DNA from: Caldicellulosiruptor kronotskyensis 2002
Lineage (GTDB): Bacteria > Bacillota > Thermoanaerobacteria > Caldicellulosiruptorales > Caldicellulosiruptoraceae
DNA length: 64,000 nt
Direction: 5' to 3'
NCBI RefSeq assembly: GCF_000166775.1
Contig: NC_014720.1
Span: forward strand, 1,544,501-1,608,500
Below the pieces are notes generated by a model. It was not told where the DNA came from and made no database searches. It saw only the letters and a program-made list of their open reading frames with translations. The translations under genes and the position numbers were made by a program. Positions 29,514 through 37,861 of the stretch are shown in pieces; positions within the stretch are counted from its first letter, which is position 1; each line of letters opens with the position of its first letter.

Positions 29514-31253
29514 TCAGTATAGTGGTCTTTTTTTATAGTGTGTATGCAGAATATGATGAGCTTTTTCACTATTTGGATGGTCTAAAAACTCTTCATATAA
29601 TCTTTTTACAGCAGGGTTTTCATGAGACTTTCTTATTGGCAGGGACCTATCTTCGTCGTATATTGCTCTTGCTCTTAGCTTTGCAACATCTACTTTTTCT
29701 TTTACCTTTGCAGGAACAATTGGCTGTCCACCACCCATTATGCAGCCACCGGGACATGCCATAATTTCTATAAAATGATACTCTTTTTCTCCGTTTTTGA
29801 CCATTTCAAGAAGTTTTTTAGCGTTTGCAAGACCATGTGCAACAGCTGCTTTAATCTTCATAGTGCCAACATCAATCTCAGCCTCTCTTATTCCTTCAAG
29901 GCCACGAACTTGAGTAATTTCGACATTTTCAAGTGTTTTTCCTGTTAGCACTTCATATACAGTTCGCAGTGCTGCTTCCATTACACCACCTGTTGTTCCA
30001 AAGATGACACCTGCACCTGTTGCATCTCCCATTGGATCGTCAAAGTGGCTATCTGGCAAGTTCACAAAGTCAATTCCCGCTTCTTTTATCATTCTTGCGA
30101 GCTCTCTTGTCGTCAATACTGCATCAACATCTGGATATCCACTTGCAGCAAGTTCTTCTCTTTGAGCTTCAAATTTCTTAGCGGTACATGGCATGACAGA
30201 TACAACAAACATGTTTGCAGGGTCAATTCCCATTTTCTGTGCAAAGTATGTCTTTAAAATAGCCCCAAACATCTCATGTGGTGATTTGCAGGTTGATAAG
30301 TTGTCTAAAAATTCTGGAAAGTAGTGCTCACAGAACTTTATCCAGCCTGGTGAACATGAGGTTATTAGCGGTAACTTACCACCGCTTTTAATTCGGTTAA
30401 TAAGCTCTGTACCTTCTTCCATAATGGTAAGGTCTGCGCCTGTGTCTGTATCAAATACTTTGTCAAATCCAAGCATCTTAAGAGCAGTTACCATCTTGCC
30501 GGTAACTCTTGTACCAATTGGAAGTCCAAACTCTTCACCAAGCGCAACTCTCACAGCTGGGGCCGCTTGAACAACAACATATTTGTTCTTGTCTGCTAAA
30601 GCCTTCCACACAATGTCTGTTGAGTCTTTTTCTCTTAAAGCTCCAACTGGGCAAGCCTGAATACATTGACCGCACATTGTACATGCAACATCATTCAAAC
30701 TTCTGTCAAATGCGGTGGATATAATTGTTCTGAAACCTCTGTAATTTGCATTAATAACTCCAACCTCTTGAACATTCCTACAAACATTTATACATCTTTT
30801 GCAAAGTATACATTTATTTGGATCTCTTACAACAGAAGGTGAAAAATCATCGAGAGGTCTTCTTATATTTTCACCTTCATATCTAATCTGCTTAACATTT
30901 AAATCTTCTGCGAGTTTTTGAAGTTCACAGTTTCCACTTCTGACACATGTCAAGCAGCTCCTGTCATGATTTGAAAGAATAAGTTCAAGATTAACCTTTC
31001 TTGCTCTTCTTACCCTTTCACTGTTTGTGATGACCTCCATGCCTTCTGACACAGGATAAACACAAGCAGCCTGCAAACTTCTTGCCCCTTTTACTTCAAC
31101 AACGCACATTCTGCAAGCACCAATTTCATTTATACCTTTGAGATAACACAGAGTTGGAATCTCAACTCCTGCTTCGCGTGCTGCTTGAAGCACTGTATAA
31201 TCTTTTGGTACCTGAATCTTCTTGCCATCTATTATTATATTTACCATTTCCAT
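29514..31253 (-). CDS. hydA: [FeFe] hydrogenase catalytic subunit HydA (NADH-linked, HndD-like)
   Basis: A 579-aa subunit that reduces protons to H2. Order of domains: [2Fe-2S] ferredoxin (CYLKGINEIGACRMC, about 36-50), His-Cys3 [4Fe-4S] site (HDRSCLTCVRSGNC, about 95), two [4Fe-4S] (CILCKRCINVC and CTMCGQCIQACP), then the H-cluster domain with L1 TSCSPGW, L2 MPCTAKKFE and L3 EIMACPGGCIMGGGQP, and the small-subunit-like C-terminus. L1 has Ser where many hydrogenases have the second Cys. With hydB and hydC it should form the trimeric NADH/ferredoxin-dependent enzyme. Confidence 0.96.
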   Translation of the reverse strand: MEMVNIIIDGKKIQVPKDYTVLQAAREAGVEIPTLCYLKGINEIGACRMCVVEVKGARSLQAACVYPVSEGMEVITNSERVRRARKVNLELILSNHDRSCLTCVRSGNCELQKLAEDLNVKQIRYEGENIRRPLDDFSPSVVRDPNKCILCKRCINVCRNVQEVGVINANYRGFRTIISTAFDRSLNDVACTMCGQCIQACPVGALREKDSTDIVWKALADKNKYVVVQAAPAVRVALGEEFGLPIGTRVTGKMVTALKMLGFDKVFDTDTGADLTIMEEGTELINRIKSGGKLPLITSCSPGWIKFCEHYFPEFLDNLSTCKSPHEMFGAILKTYFAQKMGIDPANMFVVSVMPCTAKKFEAQREELAASGYPDVDAVLTTRELARMIKEAGIDFVNLPDSHFDDPMGDATGAGVIFGTTGGVMEAALRTVYEVLTGKTLENVEITQVRGLEGIREAEIDVGTMKIKAAVAHGLANAKKLLEMVKNGEKEYHFIEIMACPGGCIMGGGQPIVPAKVKEKVDVAKLRARAIYDEDRSLPIRKSHENPAVKRLYEEFLDHPNSEKAHHILHTHYKKRPLY

Positions 31254-31272: not shown

Positions 31273-33069
31273 TTATGCCTTCTTGGAGATTGCTTTAAAC
31301 GGACACTTCTCTATGCAAACACCGCATTTGATACATTTGCTCTGATCAATCTCAAAAGGCTTTTTAATCTGTCCTGTGATAGCATTTGCAGGACAATTCT
31401 TAGCACATATGCCACAACCTTTGCAAAGGTCTTTATCTATCACAATCCTGAGCAGTGCCTTGCAAGCACCTGCTGGACATCTTTTTTCTTTTACATGTGC
31501 TTCATATTCATCTCTGAAATATCTCAGCGTGCTTAAAACAGGGTTTGGTGCAGTCTGACCAAGTCCACAAAGAGCACTGTCTTTTATTGAGTATGCAAGT
31601 TCTTCTAACTTTTCTAAATCCTCTTCTGTGCCATTTCCGCTTGTTATCTTCTGCAAAATTTCAAGCATTCTTCTTGTCCCTATTCTACATGGTGGACATT
31701 TTCCGCATGACTCGTCAACTGTAAATTCTAAAAAGAATTTTGCTATATCAACCATACAGGTGTCTTCATCCATTACAATCATACCGCCAGATCCCATCAT
31801 TGTACCAAGTGCAGTCAAAGAATCAAAGTCAATTGGTGTGTCCATAAGCGATGCTGGAATACATCCACCTGATGGTCCACCTGTTTGAACTGCCTTAAAT
31901 TTCTTGCCGCCAGGAATTCCACCACCAATATCCTCAACTATCTCTCTTACAGTTGTTCCCATTGGCACCTCAATGAGACCTGTATTGTTAACCTTTCCAA
32001 CAAGTGCAAAAACTTTTGTCCCTTTACTCTTCTCTGTTCCAATTGATGCAAACCACTCTGGTCCCTTTAGAATTATCACTGGAATGTTTGCGTATGTCTC
32101 AACGTTATTAAGTAAAGTAGGTTTTCCCCACAAACCTTTTACAGCTGGGAATGGTGGTCTTGGTCTTGGTTCTCCTCTGTGCCCTTCAATTGATGTCATC
32201 AGCGCTGTCTCCTCACCGCAGACAAATGCACCAGCACCAAGCCTTATCTCGATATCAAATTCAAATCCTGTGCCGAGTATATTCTTACCCAAAAGTCCAT
32301 ACTGTCTTGCTTGTTCAATAGCAATTTCTAATCTCTTTACTGCCAATGGATACTCTGCTCTGACATAAACGTAACCTTGCTTTGAGCCAATCGCATATCC
32401 AGCGATAGCCATTGCTTCAATTACAGAATGCGGGTCACCTTCTAAGATGCTTCTGTCCATGTACGCTCCTGGGTCACCTTCGTCTGCGTTGCAAACAACA
32501 TACTTAACATCACCTGGAGCTTTTGCTGCAAACTCCCATTTGAGTCCTGTTGGAAATCCACCGCCACCTCTTCCTCTAAGACCTGACCTTTTTACCCAGT
32601 CAATCACCTGTTCAGGTGTCATTTCTGTAAGAACCTTTGCCAAAGCCTTGTATCCATCATATGCAATATATTCTTCAATATTTTCTGGATTTATAACACC
32701 GCAGTTTCTAAGAGCAATTCGCATCTGTTTTTTATAGAATTTAACCTCATTTAATGATTTTATCTGACCTTCTTCTATGGATTCTTTATACAAAAGCCTC
32801 TTTACTATTCTTCCTTTTAAAAGATGCTCTTCCACAATCTCTTTTACATCAGAGTCTGCAACTTTGCTGTAAAATGCTCCTTCAGGATAAACAATTACAA
32901 TTGGACCTTCCGCACAAAGACCAAAACATCCAGTGCGAATTACCTGAACTTCATCTTTTAGGTTTTGTTCTTCTATTTCTTTAATGAAAGCATCATAAAT
33001 TTTATCTGACCCACCTGATGTACAACCTGTCCCACCACATACAAGAACATGCGATCTGTACAATGGCAT
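31273..33069 (-). CDS. hydB: NuoF-like hydrogenase subunit HydB (NADH/FMN binding)
   Basis: A 598-aa flavoprotein. An N-terminal thioredoxin-like [2Fe-2S] domain ([19 protein letters not shown]) precedes the NADH/FMN domain ([16 protein letters not shown] about 170, [13 protein letters not shown] about 195). A [4Fe-4S] site [12 protein letters not shown] is near 455, and two C-terminal ferredoxin clusters ([24 protein letters not shown]) end it. This is the electron input/bifurcating subunit of HydABC enzymes. It precedes hydA by 19 nt. Confidence 0.96.
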
Positions 33070-33086: not shown

Positions 33087-33476
33087 TTAGTTATTTGCTT
33101 CTTTATTTTCTTCATAACCAATTGTATACTCATAAACCGGCTTTCCATTTACCAAATGCTCTGCAACAACCCTTGTGACCTTCTCAGGCGTCATCTTGAC
33201 ATATGTGACCTTTTCTTTATTTGGTTCATAAACCTCTACAATTGGCTCATACTTGCAAAGTCCAATACAACCAGTTTGAACAACTGTAACGTTTTTTAAA
33301 TTTCTTTTTTGAATCTCTTCAATAAATTTTAGCATAACAGGTCTTGCACCTGCTGCTATTCCACATGTTGCCATACCAACAACAACTCTTATACCTTCGC
33401 CCTGCTGTTTTCTGAACTCAAGCTCTTCTAACGCTTTTTTCCTTATTTCTTCAAGCTCTTGAATAGATTTAATCAT
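33087..33476 (-). CDS. [2Fe-2S] thioredoxin-like ferredoxin subunit (HndB-like)
   Basis: A 129-aa protein with the thioredoxin-like ferredoxin cysteine pattern: C at [11 protein letters not shown] (about 38) and in [14 protein letters not shown] (about 69-73). The first pair has one visible Cys before the usual spacing ([11 protein letters not shown]), so the ligand set looks like CX11-C degenerate at one position and should be checked. Its position between HATPase and hydB is as in NADP/NAD-reducing hydrogenase hnd operons. It probably transfers electrons within the complex. Confidence 0.85.
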
Positions 33477-34030
33477 TTATTATTTGCACCTCCGGTTAAA
33501 TTTGATAAACCTCTTTCTAACTGACCACGTATAAAGTCAAGAATGCTCAGAGTATTCAAAGGAACATCATTGCCCAAAATCTCTCGAATGCTTTTCGTAT
33601 CAAAAATAAATTCACTTTGATTGTTTCTGTAACAAAATGTAAAATCTACATTTGGTGCTCCACTTATAAGTGCAAGTAGGGTCTCTGTAATATTTCCAAG
33701 AGGAGGTCTGTCTATATGAGAATGTTTCAGTTTTAGCACTATTTTAGTGCCTCTTTCGAGCCTTTCAATTTCAAAGCTTCCTTCACAGTCCATTGCAACT
33801 TGTTTTGCTAAAGAAAGACCAAGTCCTACTTTTCGCGTTTTTCTTGTAGTGTAAAAAGGGTCTGTTACTTTATCAATAACATCCTTGGGAATACCTCTGC
33901 CGTTATCCTCTATTGTAATGGTAAAAAGGTCCTCTTTCAAATCTTCGACAATTTCAATCTTAACTAAACTTGCACCTGCTTCTATCGAATTTTGAACAAG
34001 GTCAAGGATATAAAGCGAAATCTCGTTCAA
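33473..34030 (-). CDS. Stand-alone HATPase domain protein in the hydrogenase operon
   Basis: A 185-aa protein with a GHKL ATPase fold and no HisKA dimerisation/phosphoacceptor domain. N box NSIEAGASLVKIEI (about 14), G1 DNGRGIP (about 43), F box DPFYTTRKTRKVGLG and G2 GLGLSLAKQ are intact. The C-terminal third (from about 110) carries no recognisable domain. TTG start; the end overlaps the next gene by 4 nt. Related proteins sit in hydrogenase operons of Clostridia and are presumed regulatory; partner unknown. Confidence 0.85.
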   Translation of the reverse strand: MNEISLYILDLVQNSIEAGASLVKIEIVEDLKEDLFTITIEDNGRGIPKDVIDKVTDPFYTTRKTRKVGLGLSLAKQVAMDCEGSFEIERLERGTKIVLKLKHSHIDRPPLGNITETLLALISGAPNVDFTFCYRNNQSEFIFDTKSIREILGNDVPLNTLSILDFIRGQLERGLSNLTGGANNK

Positions 34031-34072: not shown

Positions 34073-34555
34073 TTAATATCTTGACAAAATATCTTTAACA
34101 TCATCCACACTCAATTTCCCGTAAACAGTATTGTCAATCACAACAACTGGAGCAAGTCCGCAAGCTCCTAAGCATCTTGTCGCTTCAATCGAAAATTTTC
34201 CATCTTCTGTTGTTTCACCTACATCAATCTTTAAAAGTTCTTTTAACTTATCCAAAATTTTATCTGCACCTTTAACATAACAAGCTGTACCCATGCATAC
34301 ACTTATCTTATGGTCACCTGTCGGCTTTAACGTAAAGCGCGTATAAAATGTTGCAACACCGTAAACCTCCGCCATGGGTATATTGAGTCCTTCTGCTATT
34401 CTTTTTTGAACTTCATAGGGCAAATATCCAAAAAGCTCCTGTGCCTCATGTAAAACTGGAATTAAAGCCCCTCTTCTTGATTTATTTTTTTCAATAATCT
34501 CATCAAGTTTTTTGAAATTCTCTTCTGTCAGATTCTTACCCTGGCAACAAGACAT
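34073..34555 (-). CDS. hydC: NuoE-like hydrogenase subunit HydC
   Basis: A [2Fe-2S] thioredoxin-like subunit of about 160 aa. Cysteines lie in SVCMGTACYVKGAD (about 88-93) and TRCLGACGLAPVVV (about 128-132), and the N-terminal helical bundle includes RRGALIPVLHEAQELFGYLP. The start is placed at ATG 34555, 10 nt after GAAGGGGG, giving MSCCQGKNLTEENFKK; the upstream extension is not homologous. It passes electrons between HydB and HydA. Confidence 0.94.
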   Translation of the reverse strand: MSCCQGKNLTEENFKKLDEIIEKNKSRRGALIPVLHEAQELFGYLPYEVQKRIAEGLNIPMAEVYGVATFYTRFTLKPTGDHKISVCMGTACYVKGADKILDKLKELLKIDVGETTEDGKFSIEATRCLGACGLAPVVVIDNTVYGKLSVDDVKDILSRY

Positions 34556-34616
34556 AAATCTGCATCCCCCTTCTATTGTTAGAAATTTAACATATGGAGT
34601 TAAAGCTACTGTTAAT

Positions 34617-34663: not shown

Positions 34664-35365
34664 TTAATTGAAAAATATTGTATACAGTATATCACTTTCA
34701 ATAAAAAATTCCCTTTCATTTATCTCCCACAGATGATGGGCATCTGAGGAATGGAGAAAAATATAATCTTTGTTTTGAGGGAGAAACTTGGTAAATTCTA
34801 TTTCATTGGTGCCAGATAACTCTAAAAAGGTCAAATTAGTTAGCTCTTCAGGCAAAAAACCAAGCCTTCCAATTACACCAAAAGATTGTCTGTCTATATG
34901 AGCAGGGATAAAAACCATGTTGTAGAATTTGGAAACCTCATAAACCTGTTTTAAGTTTAGAGTAAGTGGTTGGAGAAGAAGTTTTTCATAGCTTCCAATT
35001 ATATTGTCCTGTGTATCAACAATGTATTGATTACCATAAATATCTTCTCTGAGCTTAACAAAAGGTAAATGTTTGTCAATAATGCCCTGAAATTCTCTGA
35101 TAATTGAAACATCTTTGTGCTTAAAATACAGCAGAACATGAATCTCCTCTTCTGTTTCAATCTCAATTCCAGGTATAAATAAAATGTCAAGTAAACTTGC
35201 TACTTCCAAAAAATTTTCAAGGTTTAATGTGGAGTTATGGTCTGTAACAGATATAACATCTAATCCCTTTAACTTTGCCATATTTATTATATTATGTGGT
35301 GTCATATCATTGTCTGCACACGGAGAAAGCAACGAATGAATATGAAGGTCATAATAAAGCTTCAT
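34664..35365 (-). CDS. PHP domain phosphoesterase-like protein
   Basis: A 233-aa PHP-fold protein. The metal-binding motifs are YYDLHIHSLLSPCADNDM (residues 4-21), SVTDHNS (about 40), an internal EIE/His region and a C-terminal HSSDAHHLWEI (about 210-220). It may be a phosphoesterase acting on a nucleotide or phosphoprotein. It overlaps the preceding DRTGG gene by 17 nt, so it belongs with the sensor cluster. The substrate is unknown. Confidence 0.88.
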   Translation of the reverse strand: MKLYYDLHIHSLLSPCADNDMTPHNIINMAKLKGLDVISVTDHNSTLNLENFLEVASLLDILFIPGIEIETEEEIHVLLYFKHKDVSIIREFQGIIDKHLPFVKLREDIYGNQYIVDTQDNIIGSYEKLLLQPLTLNLKQVYEVSKFYNMVFIPAHIDRQSFGVIGRLGFLPEELTNLTFLELSGTNEIEFTKFLPQNKDYIFLHSSDAHHLWEINEREFFIESDILYTIFFN

Positions 35366-35699
35366 TTTTATCTCCCTTTTCTTTAAGAATCAGCAACCTT
35401 GCTGTTTCAAAATGTGAAAGTTCTGTTGTAAAAATTGGAATTTGCTGCTCTATTGATTTTTGAAGCATATCAGCGTCGGGCTTTACTCCTTCTGTCAAGA
35501 TTATTGCTTTTACTTCTCTGAGAGTTGCTATAGCAACCACATTTACATTGTTTTGAATGGTAATCCATATACTATTGTCCTTAATATGCGATATTGCAAA
35601 ACTTAAAACATCTCCAATATATACATTTTCATACTGTTCATCCTTTACAATCCCATTTGCCAATTCAAAATACCTGCATAAATCTAAAATGCTTGGCAC
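35349..35699 (-). CDS. DRTGG domain protein (copy 1)
   Basis: A 116-aa single-domain protein of the DRTGG family (as found next to CBS domains and in phosphotransacetylase N-termini). It has the pattern VYIGDVLSFAISHIKDNSIWITIQNNVNVVAIATLREVKAIILTEGVKPDADMLQKS. It may bind a nucleotide or small ligand. GTG start, overlapping the hydrogenase-like gene by one base. A second copy lies at 37488. Confidence 0.85.
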   Translation of the reverse strand: MPSILDLCRYFELANGIVKDEQYENVYIGDVLSFAISHIKDNSIWITIQNNVNVVAIATLREVKAIILTEGVKPDADMLQKSIEQQIPIFTTELSHFETARLLILKEKGDKNEALL

Positions 35700-37030
35700 T
35701 ACTCATCATTCCTTTCAAGTGATGGTGGTAGTTTATTCGAAAGCTCAACCATCTTGTTTGCAAGCTCTTTTATGTTTTCCCTAAGAATAAAAATACAATC
35801 TGTATCATTGGCAAAACCACGCACTATATCCTCGGCAAGAGTTTTGCATGTAGGTGAACCACAAGCACCACAGTCCAAACCCGGAAGTATACTTAGGATA
35901 TTATTTGCCTTTTCAAACTTTTCCATAGCTCTTTCAATGTCAGAGTCAAGTTCAAGCACAGGATTTGTCTCCAACTCTTTTTCAAAAAGAACATCCTCAA
36001 GCCTGAGAGAAAAACTATTAATAATTTCCGCTGTCCACGCTGAAAGACTCTCTTCTTTGTCTTTTAATTTGGAAGACAATCTTTTAATACGATTTTTGGC
36101 AACATACGGATTTTCTACTGCAAGAGGCCCTCCAACACACCCACCAGTGCAAGCAAGACCTTCAAAATATGTGATGTCTTTGAGCCTGCCATTTTCAATC
36201 TCTTCTAAAACTTTAACTACGTTGTGAATACCATCAACGTTTATATACTCTTCAATTTCCAACGCCAAGCTTTCGCCACCTGATGCTGCCCATCCAATAC
36301 CTTTGCCTGAGGTAATTGAAAGAGGCTTTATAACTTTTATTTCTCTTAGTTTACTTCTTACAAGTCCATAAATATCTTTTATCGCTATTACTCCATCCAC
36401 GTATGAACGCTCAAAACCAAGAGGATTATTTATATATGTCATCTTTGCTGCACATGGAGATATAAAAAAAGCGCCTATTTTGTCTTCATCAATTCCTTTT
36501 TCTTTATGTATCTTTTTCTTAGCAATATATGCAGCAACTTCCATAGGTGAAGCAATTGGCAGAATATTCTCGATTAAGTCCGGAAATTTTGTTTGAATAA
36601 GCCTTACAACTGCTGGGCATGCAGAGGAAATTACTGGTTTTTTGTTTTTCTCAGAAAGAATAAACTGCTTTGTAAAGTGGGTTACTATCTCAGCTGCTTT
36701 TGCTACCTCAAATATATCATCAAACCCAAGGTTAAGCAAAGCATACAGAAGCTTATTCACATCATCAACCTCAAACTGAGCGTAAAACGAAGGGGCTGGC
36801 AGTGCAACTTTATATTGAAATTTATTGATTTCCTCTAAACTGTCAGTAATGGCATATTTCGCATGGTACGGGCATGTCCTTATGCACTCTCCGCAGTCTA
36901 TGCACCTTTGGTCAATAATCCTTGCTTTTGAGTTTCGAACTCTAATGGCTTCAGTTGGACATCTTTTAATACAGTTTGTACATCCTTTACATTTTTCTTT
37001 GTCAAGCATTATAGAATGTAAATTTTTCAT
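35699..37030 (-). CDS. [FeFe] hydrogenase-like protein with sensory-type H-cluster motifs
   Basis: A 443-aa protein. Two [4Fe-4S] clusters (CKGCTNCIKRCP at 14-25, CIDCGECIRTCP about 44-55) open it. The H-cluster domain follows with altered motifs: L1 SSACPAVV (Ala where the proton-transfer Cys of TSCCP sits), L2 SPCAAKMTY (Glu replaced) and L3 EGLACTGGCVGGP (Met replaced). A C-terminal four-Cys Fe-S domain (LDCGACGSPTC plus a later Cys) ends it. These changes recall putative sensory hydrogenases (HydS), not H2 producers. Neighbours with HATPase, DRTGG and PHP domains support signalling. Confidence 0.88.
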   Translation of the reverse strand: MKNLHSIMLDKEKCKGCTNCIKRCPTEAIRVRNSKARIIDQRCIDCGECIRTCPYHAKYAITDSLEEINKFQYKVALPAPSFYAQFEVDDVNKLLYALLNLGFDDIFEVAKAAEIVTHFTKQFILSEKNKKPVISSACPAVVRLIQTKFPDLIENILPIASPMEVAAYIAKKKIHKEKGIDEDKIGAFFISPCAAKMTYINNPLGFERSYVDGVIAIKDIYGLVRSKLREIKVIKPLSITSGKGIGWAASGGESLALEIEEYINVDGIHNVVKVLEEIENGRLKDITYFEGLACTGGCVGGPLAVENPYVAKNRIKRLSSKLKDKEESLSAWTAEIINSFSLRLEDVLFEKELETNPVLELDSDIERAMEKFEKANNILSILPGLDCGACGSPTCKTLAEDIVRGFANDTDCIFILRENIKELANKMVELSNKLPPSLERNDE

Positions 37031-37062: not shown

Positions 37063-37482
37063 TCATTTATTGTAAATAACCATATATACCCTTGTACCTT
37101 TTCCTTTTTGTGATTCAATCTCAAAATAATCTGAATACTTCTTCATGTTTGGAAGACCCATACCTGCTCCAAATCCCAAGTTTCTTATCTCTTCTGGAGC
37201 GGTGGAATATCCTTCTTTCATAGCAAGCTCAATATCTTCAATGCCAGGTCCATCATCTTGAGCTACTATTTCAATCTTATCTTTTGAAATTACGGCTTTT
37301 AAAATCCCACCAAAAGAATGTATAACAATATTCATCTCTGCTTCATAAGAGACAATTGCAACTTTTTTAAGTATCTCTGGTTTTACACCAAGTTTCTTTA
37401 GAGTCTCCTTAATCTTAGAAGAAGCTTCCCCTGCTAATATAAAATTACCTGGCTCAATCTCAAATTCCAGCTCAAGCAGCAT
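37063..37482 (-). CDS. Anti-sigma-factor-type HATPase (RsbT/SpoIIAB-like)
   Basis: A GHKL ATPase of about 139 aa of the small serine-kinase type. N box YEAEMNIVIHSFGGIL (about 50), G1 AQDDGPGIEDIELAM (about 78) and G2 LGFGAGMGLPNMKKYSD (about 105) are visible. Such proteins phosphorylate partner proteins (anti-anti-sigma type) or act alone. Start at ATG 37482 just after the DRTGG stop; a GTG at 37497 overlapping that gene is the alternative. No STAS-domain partner is seen nearby. Confidence 0.85.
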   Translation of the reverse strand: MLLELEFEIEPGNFILAGEASSKIKETLKKLGVKPEILKKVAIVSYEAEMNIVIHSFGGILKAVISKDKIEIVAQDDGPGIEDIELAMKEGYSTAPEEIRNLGFGAGMGLPNMKKYSDYFEIESQKGKGTRVYMVIYNK

Positions 37483-37487
37483 CTTTC

Positions 37488-37841
37488 TCAGCAGCACCTT
37501 TCTTTCCCAAGTCCGTTTTCATAAAGTATTCCACATGCTTGAAACATTGGATAGTCAGTTCCAAGAAGAGCTATACACTTTTCTTTTGCAAGTTTTAACA
37601 TTTCTTCAGATGGTTGTTTTCCTCGAACAATTATCACAGCTTTTATATCCATCATCTCTGCAGTCCTTACCACTTGAGGATTTACAAGACCTGTCAATAA
37701 AATCACCTTTTCTTTTACAAATGCCAAAACGTCACTCATAAGGTCAGAGCCACATGCATTTAAAAATTCTTCGTTACATAGATCTTCAGGCTCGAAATAA
37801 ACCCTGCAATTTAAAAGTTCCTTAATCTTTGTTAATTTCAT
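37488..37841 (-). CDS. DRTGG domain protein (copy 2)
   Basis: A 117-aa single-domain protein resembling the DRTGG protein at 35349 (both contain V...MSDVLAFVKEKVILLTGLVNPQVVRTAEMMDIKAVIIVRGKQPSEEMLKLA-type layout). A clear GGAGG precedes its ATG. It starts 20 nt after tlyA, which joins the sensor cluster to the dxs-tlyA genes. Ligand unknown. Confidence 0.85.
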   Translation of the reverse strand: MKLTKIKELLNCRVYFEPEDLCNEEFLNACGSDLMSDVLAFVKEKVILLTGLVNPQVVRTAEMMDIKAVIIVRGKQPSEEMLKLAKEKCIALLGTDYPMFQACGILYENGLGKERCC

Positions 37842-37861
37842 AACAAATAACCTCCAAATTT

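Follow-up and report, generated by a model that had tools for sequence, protein, structure and literature searches.

A group D [FeFe]-hydrogenase in a conserved gene cassette beside the NADH-dependent hydrogenase operon of Caldicellulosiruptor kronotskyensis

Caldicellulosiruptor is a genus used for H2 production, and the genome of C. kronotskyensis 2002 encodes only two [FeFe]-hydrogenases, the catalytic HydA and a second protein, HydS, whose active-site motifs depart from the ordinary ones. Both genes lie in the stretch of 64,000 nucleotides of contig NC_014720.1 analyzed here (the window; Table 1), and as HydG and HydF are also encoded in the genome, the H-cluster can be made. The locus raises the question of whether HydS is a sensor or a working hydrogenase and, if it senses H2 or redox state, through which partners it would signal; how sensory hydrogenases without a PAS domain do so is stated in the literature to be unresolved. 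The first-pass annotation, made from the sequence alone, had proposed an H2 or redox sensor instead of a catalyst, with an extra C-terminal four-cysteine cluster as a possible output path.

Table 1. Features of the hydS cassette and the adjoining Hyd operon (positions within the window).
Feature	Position	Strand	Basis
hydS, group D (M2e) [FeFe]-hydrogenase, 443 aa	35699..37030	-	Pfam, phylogeny, motif and proton-path alignment
N-terminal 2x[4Fe-4S] cysteines C14 C17 C20 C24 / C43 C46 C49 C53	36872..36991	-	Fer4 / Fer4_10 matches
L1 SSACP, residues 135-139; A137 replaces the proton-transfer Cys	36614..36628	-	motif alignment
L2 SPCAAKMTY, residues 191-199; S191 for Met353 (CpI numbering), Y199 for Glu	36434..36460	-	alignment
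L3 EGLACTGGC, residues 290-298; E290 = TamHydS E289; L292 for Met497	36137..36163	-	alignment
C-terminal Cx2Cx4Cx16C cluster domain (C387, C390, C395, C412), PF04060	35795..35872	-	Pfam
DRTGG-domain protein a, 117 aa, first cassette gene	37488..37841	-	Pfam 5.9e-5, just under cut-off
HATPase a, stand-alone, RsbW/SpoIIAB-like, adjoins hydS	37063..37497	-	Pfam
DRTGG-domain protein b, 116 aa, downstream neighbour of hydS	35349..35699	-	Pfam
PHP-family phosphoesterase	34664..35365	-	Pfam
hydC-type thioredoxin-like [2Fe-2S] subunit; start set at ATG 34555	34073..34555	-	Pfam
HATPase b, histidine-kinase-like ATPase without HisKA, 185 aa	33473..34030	-	Pfam
Small thioredoxin-like [2Fe-2S] ferredoxin	33087..33476	-	Pfam
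hydB, NuoF-like subunit of NADH-dependent hydrogenase	31273..33069	-	Pfam
hydA, catalytic group A6 [FeFe]-hydrogenase	29514..31253	-	NF040763, 954 bits, cut-off 765
Predicted Rex-like operator, ~39 bp before the hydC ATG	34576..34593	.	motif match

The hydS reading frame is intact and opens with ATG. Pfam matches comprise Fe_hyd_lg_C (residues 75-302, 9.5e-38), two Fer4 stretches and the C-terminal 'FeS' domain PF04060 (residues 382-414, 6.5e-12), while neither a PAS nor a small-subunit domain was matched in the window protein. When HydS was aligned with 69 homologues, of which about twelve belong to its own genus, the three motifs read exactly as first described, with the proton-transfer cysteine, the L2 glutamate and the L3 methionine lost; for comparison, the group A HydA of the window carries the ordinary letters MPC..K..E and EIMACPGGC. 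Position 137 is alanine in 52 and serine in 15 of the 70 aligned proteins, position 191 is serine or threonine in 69, and C20 and E290 are invariant (70/70 each). The four presumed H-cluster cysteines (138, 193, 294 and 298) are retained, as the first-pass annotation had it, and occur without exception in all 70 proteins. The extra C-terminal four-cysteine cluster is likewise present, in the PF04060 spacing listed in Table 1, with C387 and C412 found throughout the alignment. Since each of the 11 other genomes of the genus that were searched encodes an intact orthologue of 80-99% identity, these letters are due neither to chance nor to decay. Judged across the 70 aligned proteins, the 'altered' residues are the norm of the group D class, a point that the earlier reading had missed.

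In order to place HydS among the [FeFe]-hydrogenases, a maximum-likelihood tree was built of 44 proteins, 25 of them group D including the window protein, the group D side being anchored by similarity and the hallmark residues of TamHydS from Thermoanaerobacter mathranii, without HydDB reference sequences. Group D, with the window HydS inside, is split from the other proteins by a branch of 100/100 support and lies apart from the B-type rows as well, while group C-type proteins with extra output domains form a third group (98/94). Group A is a separate group, also at 100/100, which excludes placement of HydS there and settles the phylogenetic check proposed in the first-pass annotation. The domain and motif content agrees with this position: HydS combines two N-terminal [4Fe-4S] motifs and the H-domain with a C-terminal Cx2Cx4Cx16C FeS domain without PAS, and Cys299 is lost and Met353 exchanged for Ser/Thr (A137 and S191, respectively). 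The group A motifs TSCCP, MPCxxKxxE and MxCxGGC are absent, the protein scores 112 bits against TIGR02512 (cut-off 406), its score of 168 bits against TIGR04105 stays below the curated cut-off for group B (450), and the C-terminal PAS domain of group C (M2f) is missing. By sequence, HydS is thus an ordinary, intact member of the described group D (M2e) class. A scan of genome contigs returned one relative, Sedimentibacter. Among solved structures, group A-type hydrogenases and HydA2 of the HDCR complex rank highest, and none of the best 60 matches carries a group D or sensory name. An AlphaFold2 model computed from a two-sequence alignment had a mean pLDDT of 42.5, too low for interpretation.

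The window HydS is 57% identical to Thermoanaerobacter-type proteins bearing the TamHydS hallmark residues. In these homologues each of the numbered residues of TamHydS stands where it was published, and GGEAFGTF and DFFEGLAC, which the primers published for TamHydS imply, are both present. All of the TamHydS residues C20, R30, R32, R42, K35, K58, S249, E252, D265, E289, D378, C379, E392, D393, D403 and C404 are matched in the window protein, which on alignment is orthologous to TamHydS. An alternative proton path of group D and its mutants have been published for TamHydS (PMC10407848), and this path (E252, E289, S249, D265) is complete in HydS as E253, E290, S250 and D266. TamHydS turns over H2 reversibly but slowly by way of it (PMC8163306, PMC10407848), with an activity in vitro 200-fold below that of CrHydA1 (PMC6984386), is CO-tolerant and has been called putatively sensory (PMC8163306, PMC6984386). 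By analogy, HydS would bind the H-cluster and show a slow, reversible reaction with H2, in which the proton leaves by the four residues named and the electrons pass to an N-terminal [4Fe-4S] cluster. The sensory-type label of the first-pass annotation therefore holds as to class and as to a position outside group A, but 'instead of a catalyst' was an overstatement given the turnover of TamHydS.

To assess the genetic context, we compared 39 group D loci, most of them drawn from across the phylum. Conservation of the gene order extends well outside the genus: DRTGG a, HATPase a, HydS, DRTGG b, PHP, HydC, HATPase b, [2Fe-2S] ferredoxin, HydB, HydA. HATPase a lies beside HydS in 38 of the 39 loci and DRTGG b next to it in 35, while orthologues of DRTGG a upstream, a PHP gene nearby and hydB/hydA nearby are each found in 32. 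Among the deviating loci are L111, L113 and L137, which have no PHP or DRTGG genes near HydS, and L123 and L126, where the cassette stands without hydB/hydA within the stretch examined. Of 37 genomes of the class, the 33 with HydS, and no others, encode HATPase a; as the genes are linked, this co-occurrence may stem from the cassette having been lost as a unit. The ATP-binding boxes of both HATPases are intact and conserved, as are the metal ligands of the PHP protein; neither DRTGG protein has a recognizable DNA-binding or known phospho-acceptor domain, and Pfam detects no DNA-binding protein encoded anywhere in the cassette. An 'AraC family regulator' published as flanking TamHydS was considered and set aside: the Thermoanaerobacter-type locus L101 has a HATPase and a 111-aa DRTGG protein there, with no HTH match.

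Several of the cassette genes are naturally fused in other genomes. HydS is joined to DRTGG b in L090 and L094, the DRTGG part in L090 being recognized by where it lies, by visible similarity and by the locus having no DRTGG b gene of its own; DRTGG a is joined to HATPase a in L114 and L118, and PHP to HATPase b in L133 and L139. HATPase b is fused to the [2Fe-2S] protein in L102 and L103 (L102:9185-10102; window counterpart 33087-34030), which suggests that a further, redox-linked HATPase accompanies the HydS module. In L116 and L127, pairs of CBS domains are fused to HATPase a (L116:7304-8155; L127:9673-10581, minus strand), hinting at an adenine-nucleotide input to the same switch. Together, the conserved cassette and the natural fusions point to an output through protein partners of the HATPase and DRTGG type. 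Kinases near group D genes were already known (PMC3561251, PMC3608648, PMC8163306); we found no earlier mention of DRTGG or PHP genes as cassette members, or of the fusions, in the open-licence papers searched, among which a single one names both DRTGG and hydrogenase, once each.

The predicted Rex-like operator marks the start of a separate unit of hydC, HATPase b, ferredoxin, hydB and hydA. It lies at the same distance of 39 bp as the tested Rex site of Athe_1295 in C. bescii (PMC6391272) and recurs before hydC in 12 of 12 genomes of the genus and in one genome of a sister genus. With this operator of its own, the Hyd unit need not be under transcriptional control by HydS. Another Rex-like palindrome with one mismatch (37829-37846; 0.08 expected per 64 kb) overlaps the start codon of DRTGG a and is present in 7 of the 12 genomes of the genus. 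As it overlaps codons and is absent from the other 5, it is at most a weak candidate.

Taken together, we consider it reasonably probable that HydS is a slow H2 or redox sensor that is read by partner proteins and tied to the adjacent NADH-dependent HydABC. The H2- or redox-driven state of HydS would be passed by protein contact to partners encoded beside it, with DRTGG b and the RsbW-like HATPase a together with DRTGG a as candidate readers. A more specific version, in which HydS is the input of a signalling module of two DRTGG proteins, two stand-alone HATPases and the PHP protein, and a SpoIIAB/RsbW-like partner-switching kinase with DRTGG adaptors carries the signal, is put forward tentatively. 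The sensor reading is plausible, and that group D enzymes sense H2 is still a hypothesis in the literature, where we found no experiment that addresses sensing by any of them. Counting against it are the catalytic competence of TamHydS, the possible joint loss behind the co-occurrence of HydS and HATPase a, the lack of a recognizable DNA-binding or known phospho-acceptor domain in both DRTGG proteins, the loci without PHP or DRTGG genes near HydS, and the fact that transcription of the Hyd operon can be explained by its own Rex site without HydS. HydS might instead be a slow working hydrogenase, a redox safety valve that moves electrons between ferredoxin and H2 and senses nothing. The reversible interconversion of H+ and H2 by TamHydS (PMC8163306), the two predicted N-terminal [4Fe-4S] clusters and the conserved proton path, perhaps dispensable for a pure sensor without turnover, would all suit such a role, but the very low rates of TamHydS (PMC6984386) and the tight linkage of hydS to stand-alone HATPase, DRTGG and PHP genes without an obvious electron-transfer role make it improbable.

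Two further points concern how and on what a sensor would act. That the C-terminal [4Fe-4S] cluster serves as its redox output wire would be in keeping with the universal presence of the four-cysteine domain in the aligned group D proteins and with its position in group C-type and MCP-type proteins, where it directly precedes PAS, histidine-kinase or MCP output domains. However, 1 atm H2 fails to reduce the corresponding cluster of TamHydS at pH 6-8, and C379A disrupts it while leaving activity nearly unchanged (PMC13104023, 2026); all residues named in that study as tuning the cluster are conserved in the window HydS. The output path suggested in the first-pass annotation is for these reasons not supported, and we regard the wire as very unlikely. 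In the favoured sensor reading, for which the place of this domain ahead of output domains in those related proteins also speaks, it would be no electron exit but a structural or docking piece that connects the H-domain with its output partner. As to the target, the HydS, HATPase and DRTGG sensor could act post-translationally on the assembly or activity of HydABC and not on expression, a variant of the favoured sensor reading that differs in its target. The separate Rex-like operator, the cassette's lack of a recognizable DNA-binding protein and the frequent proximity of hydB/hydA argue for it, whereas the cassettes of L123 and L126 argue against it; we rate it as rather unlikely in itself, though as an equal alternative to transcriptional control by HydS.

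Other genomes hold related sensory-type proteins. In L017 (1477-3366), L018 (205-2085), L019 (199-2067) and L020 (175-2067), an [FeFe]-hydrogenase-like protein with a C-terminal FeS domain is fused to an MCP signalling domain, the domains being assigned by Pfam on L017; its L3 region reads ILNCHEGC. It occurs in other genomes of the genus, was not found in that of the window, and is a candidate for a soluble chemoreceptor-like H2 or redox sensor. At L115:13469-15772, a group C-type hydrogenase leads into sequence that, by eye, is PAS-like and histidine-kinase-like, and a cassette with a HydS-DRTGG fusion lies shortly downstream of it.

The cassette and its fusions are the only part of these results that goes beyond the routine: they name concrete partner candidates, DRTGG b and HATPase a, for a PAS-less sensory hydrogenase, and the signalling-module reading, if true, would answer how such enzymes signal. 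The assignment of HydS itself is a confirmation, since the class is known, an orthologue has been characterized and the genes of the genus stand in a published table. There, Athe_1292 of C. bescii and Csac_1857 of C. saccharolyticus are listed as sensory 'D M2e' beside Athe_1297-1299 and Csac_1862-1864 (Carere et al., 2012; PMC3561251); they occupy the same position upstream of the Hyd operon as the window hydS, from which we found no difference, and are effectively the same gene. The group C (M2f) HydS, for example of Thermotoga maritima, shares the two N-terminal [4Fe-4S] clusters and the C-terminal FeS domain (PMC8163306, PMC13104023), and its H-domain likewise has no proton-transfer cysteine, but it adds a PAS domain that the window protein does not have, and group C-type proteins fall outside the group D branch. 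TamHydS has the same domain order and C-terminal Cx2Cx4Cx16C as the window HydS, the same C299A and M353S substitutions and leucine at Met497, the window protein differing by eight more residues before the C-terminal domain; the TamHydS gene, like hydS, lies upstream of a trimeric group A hydrogenase.
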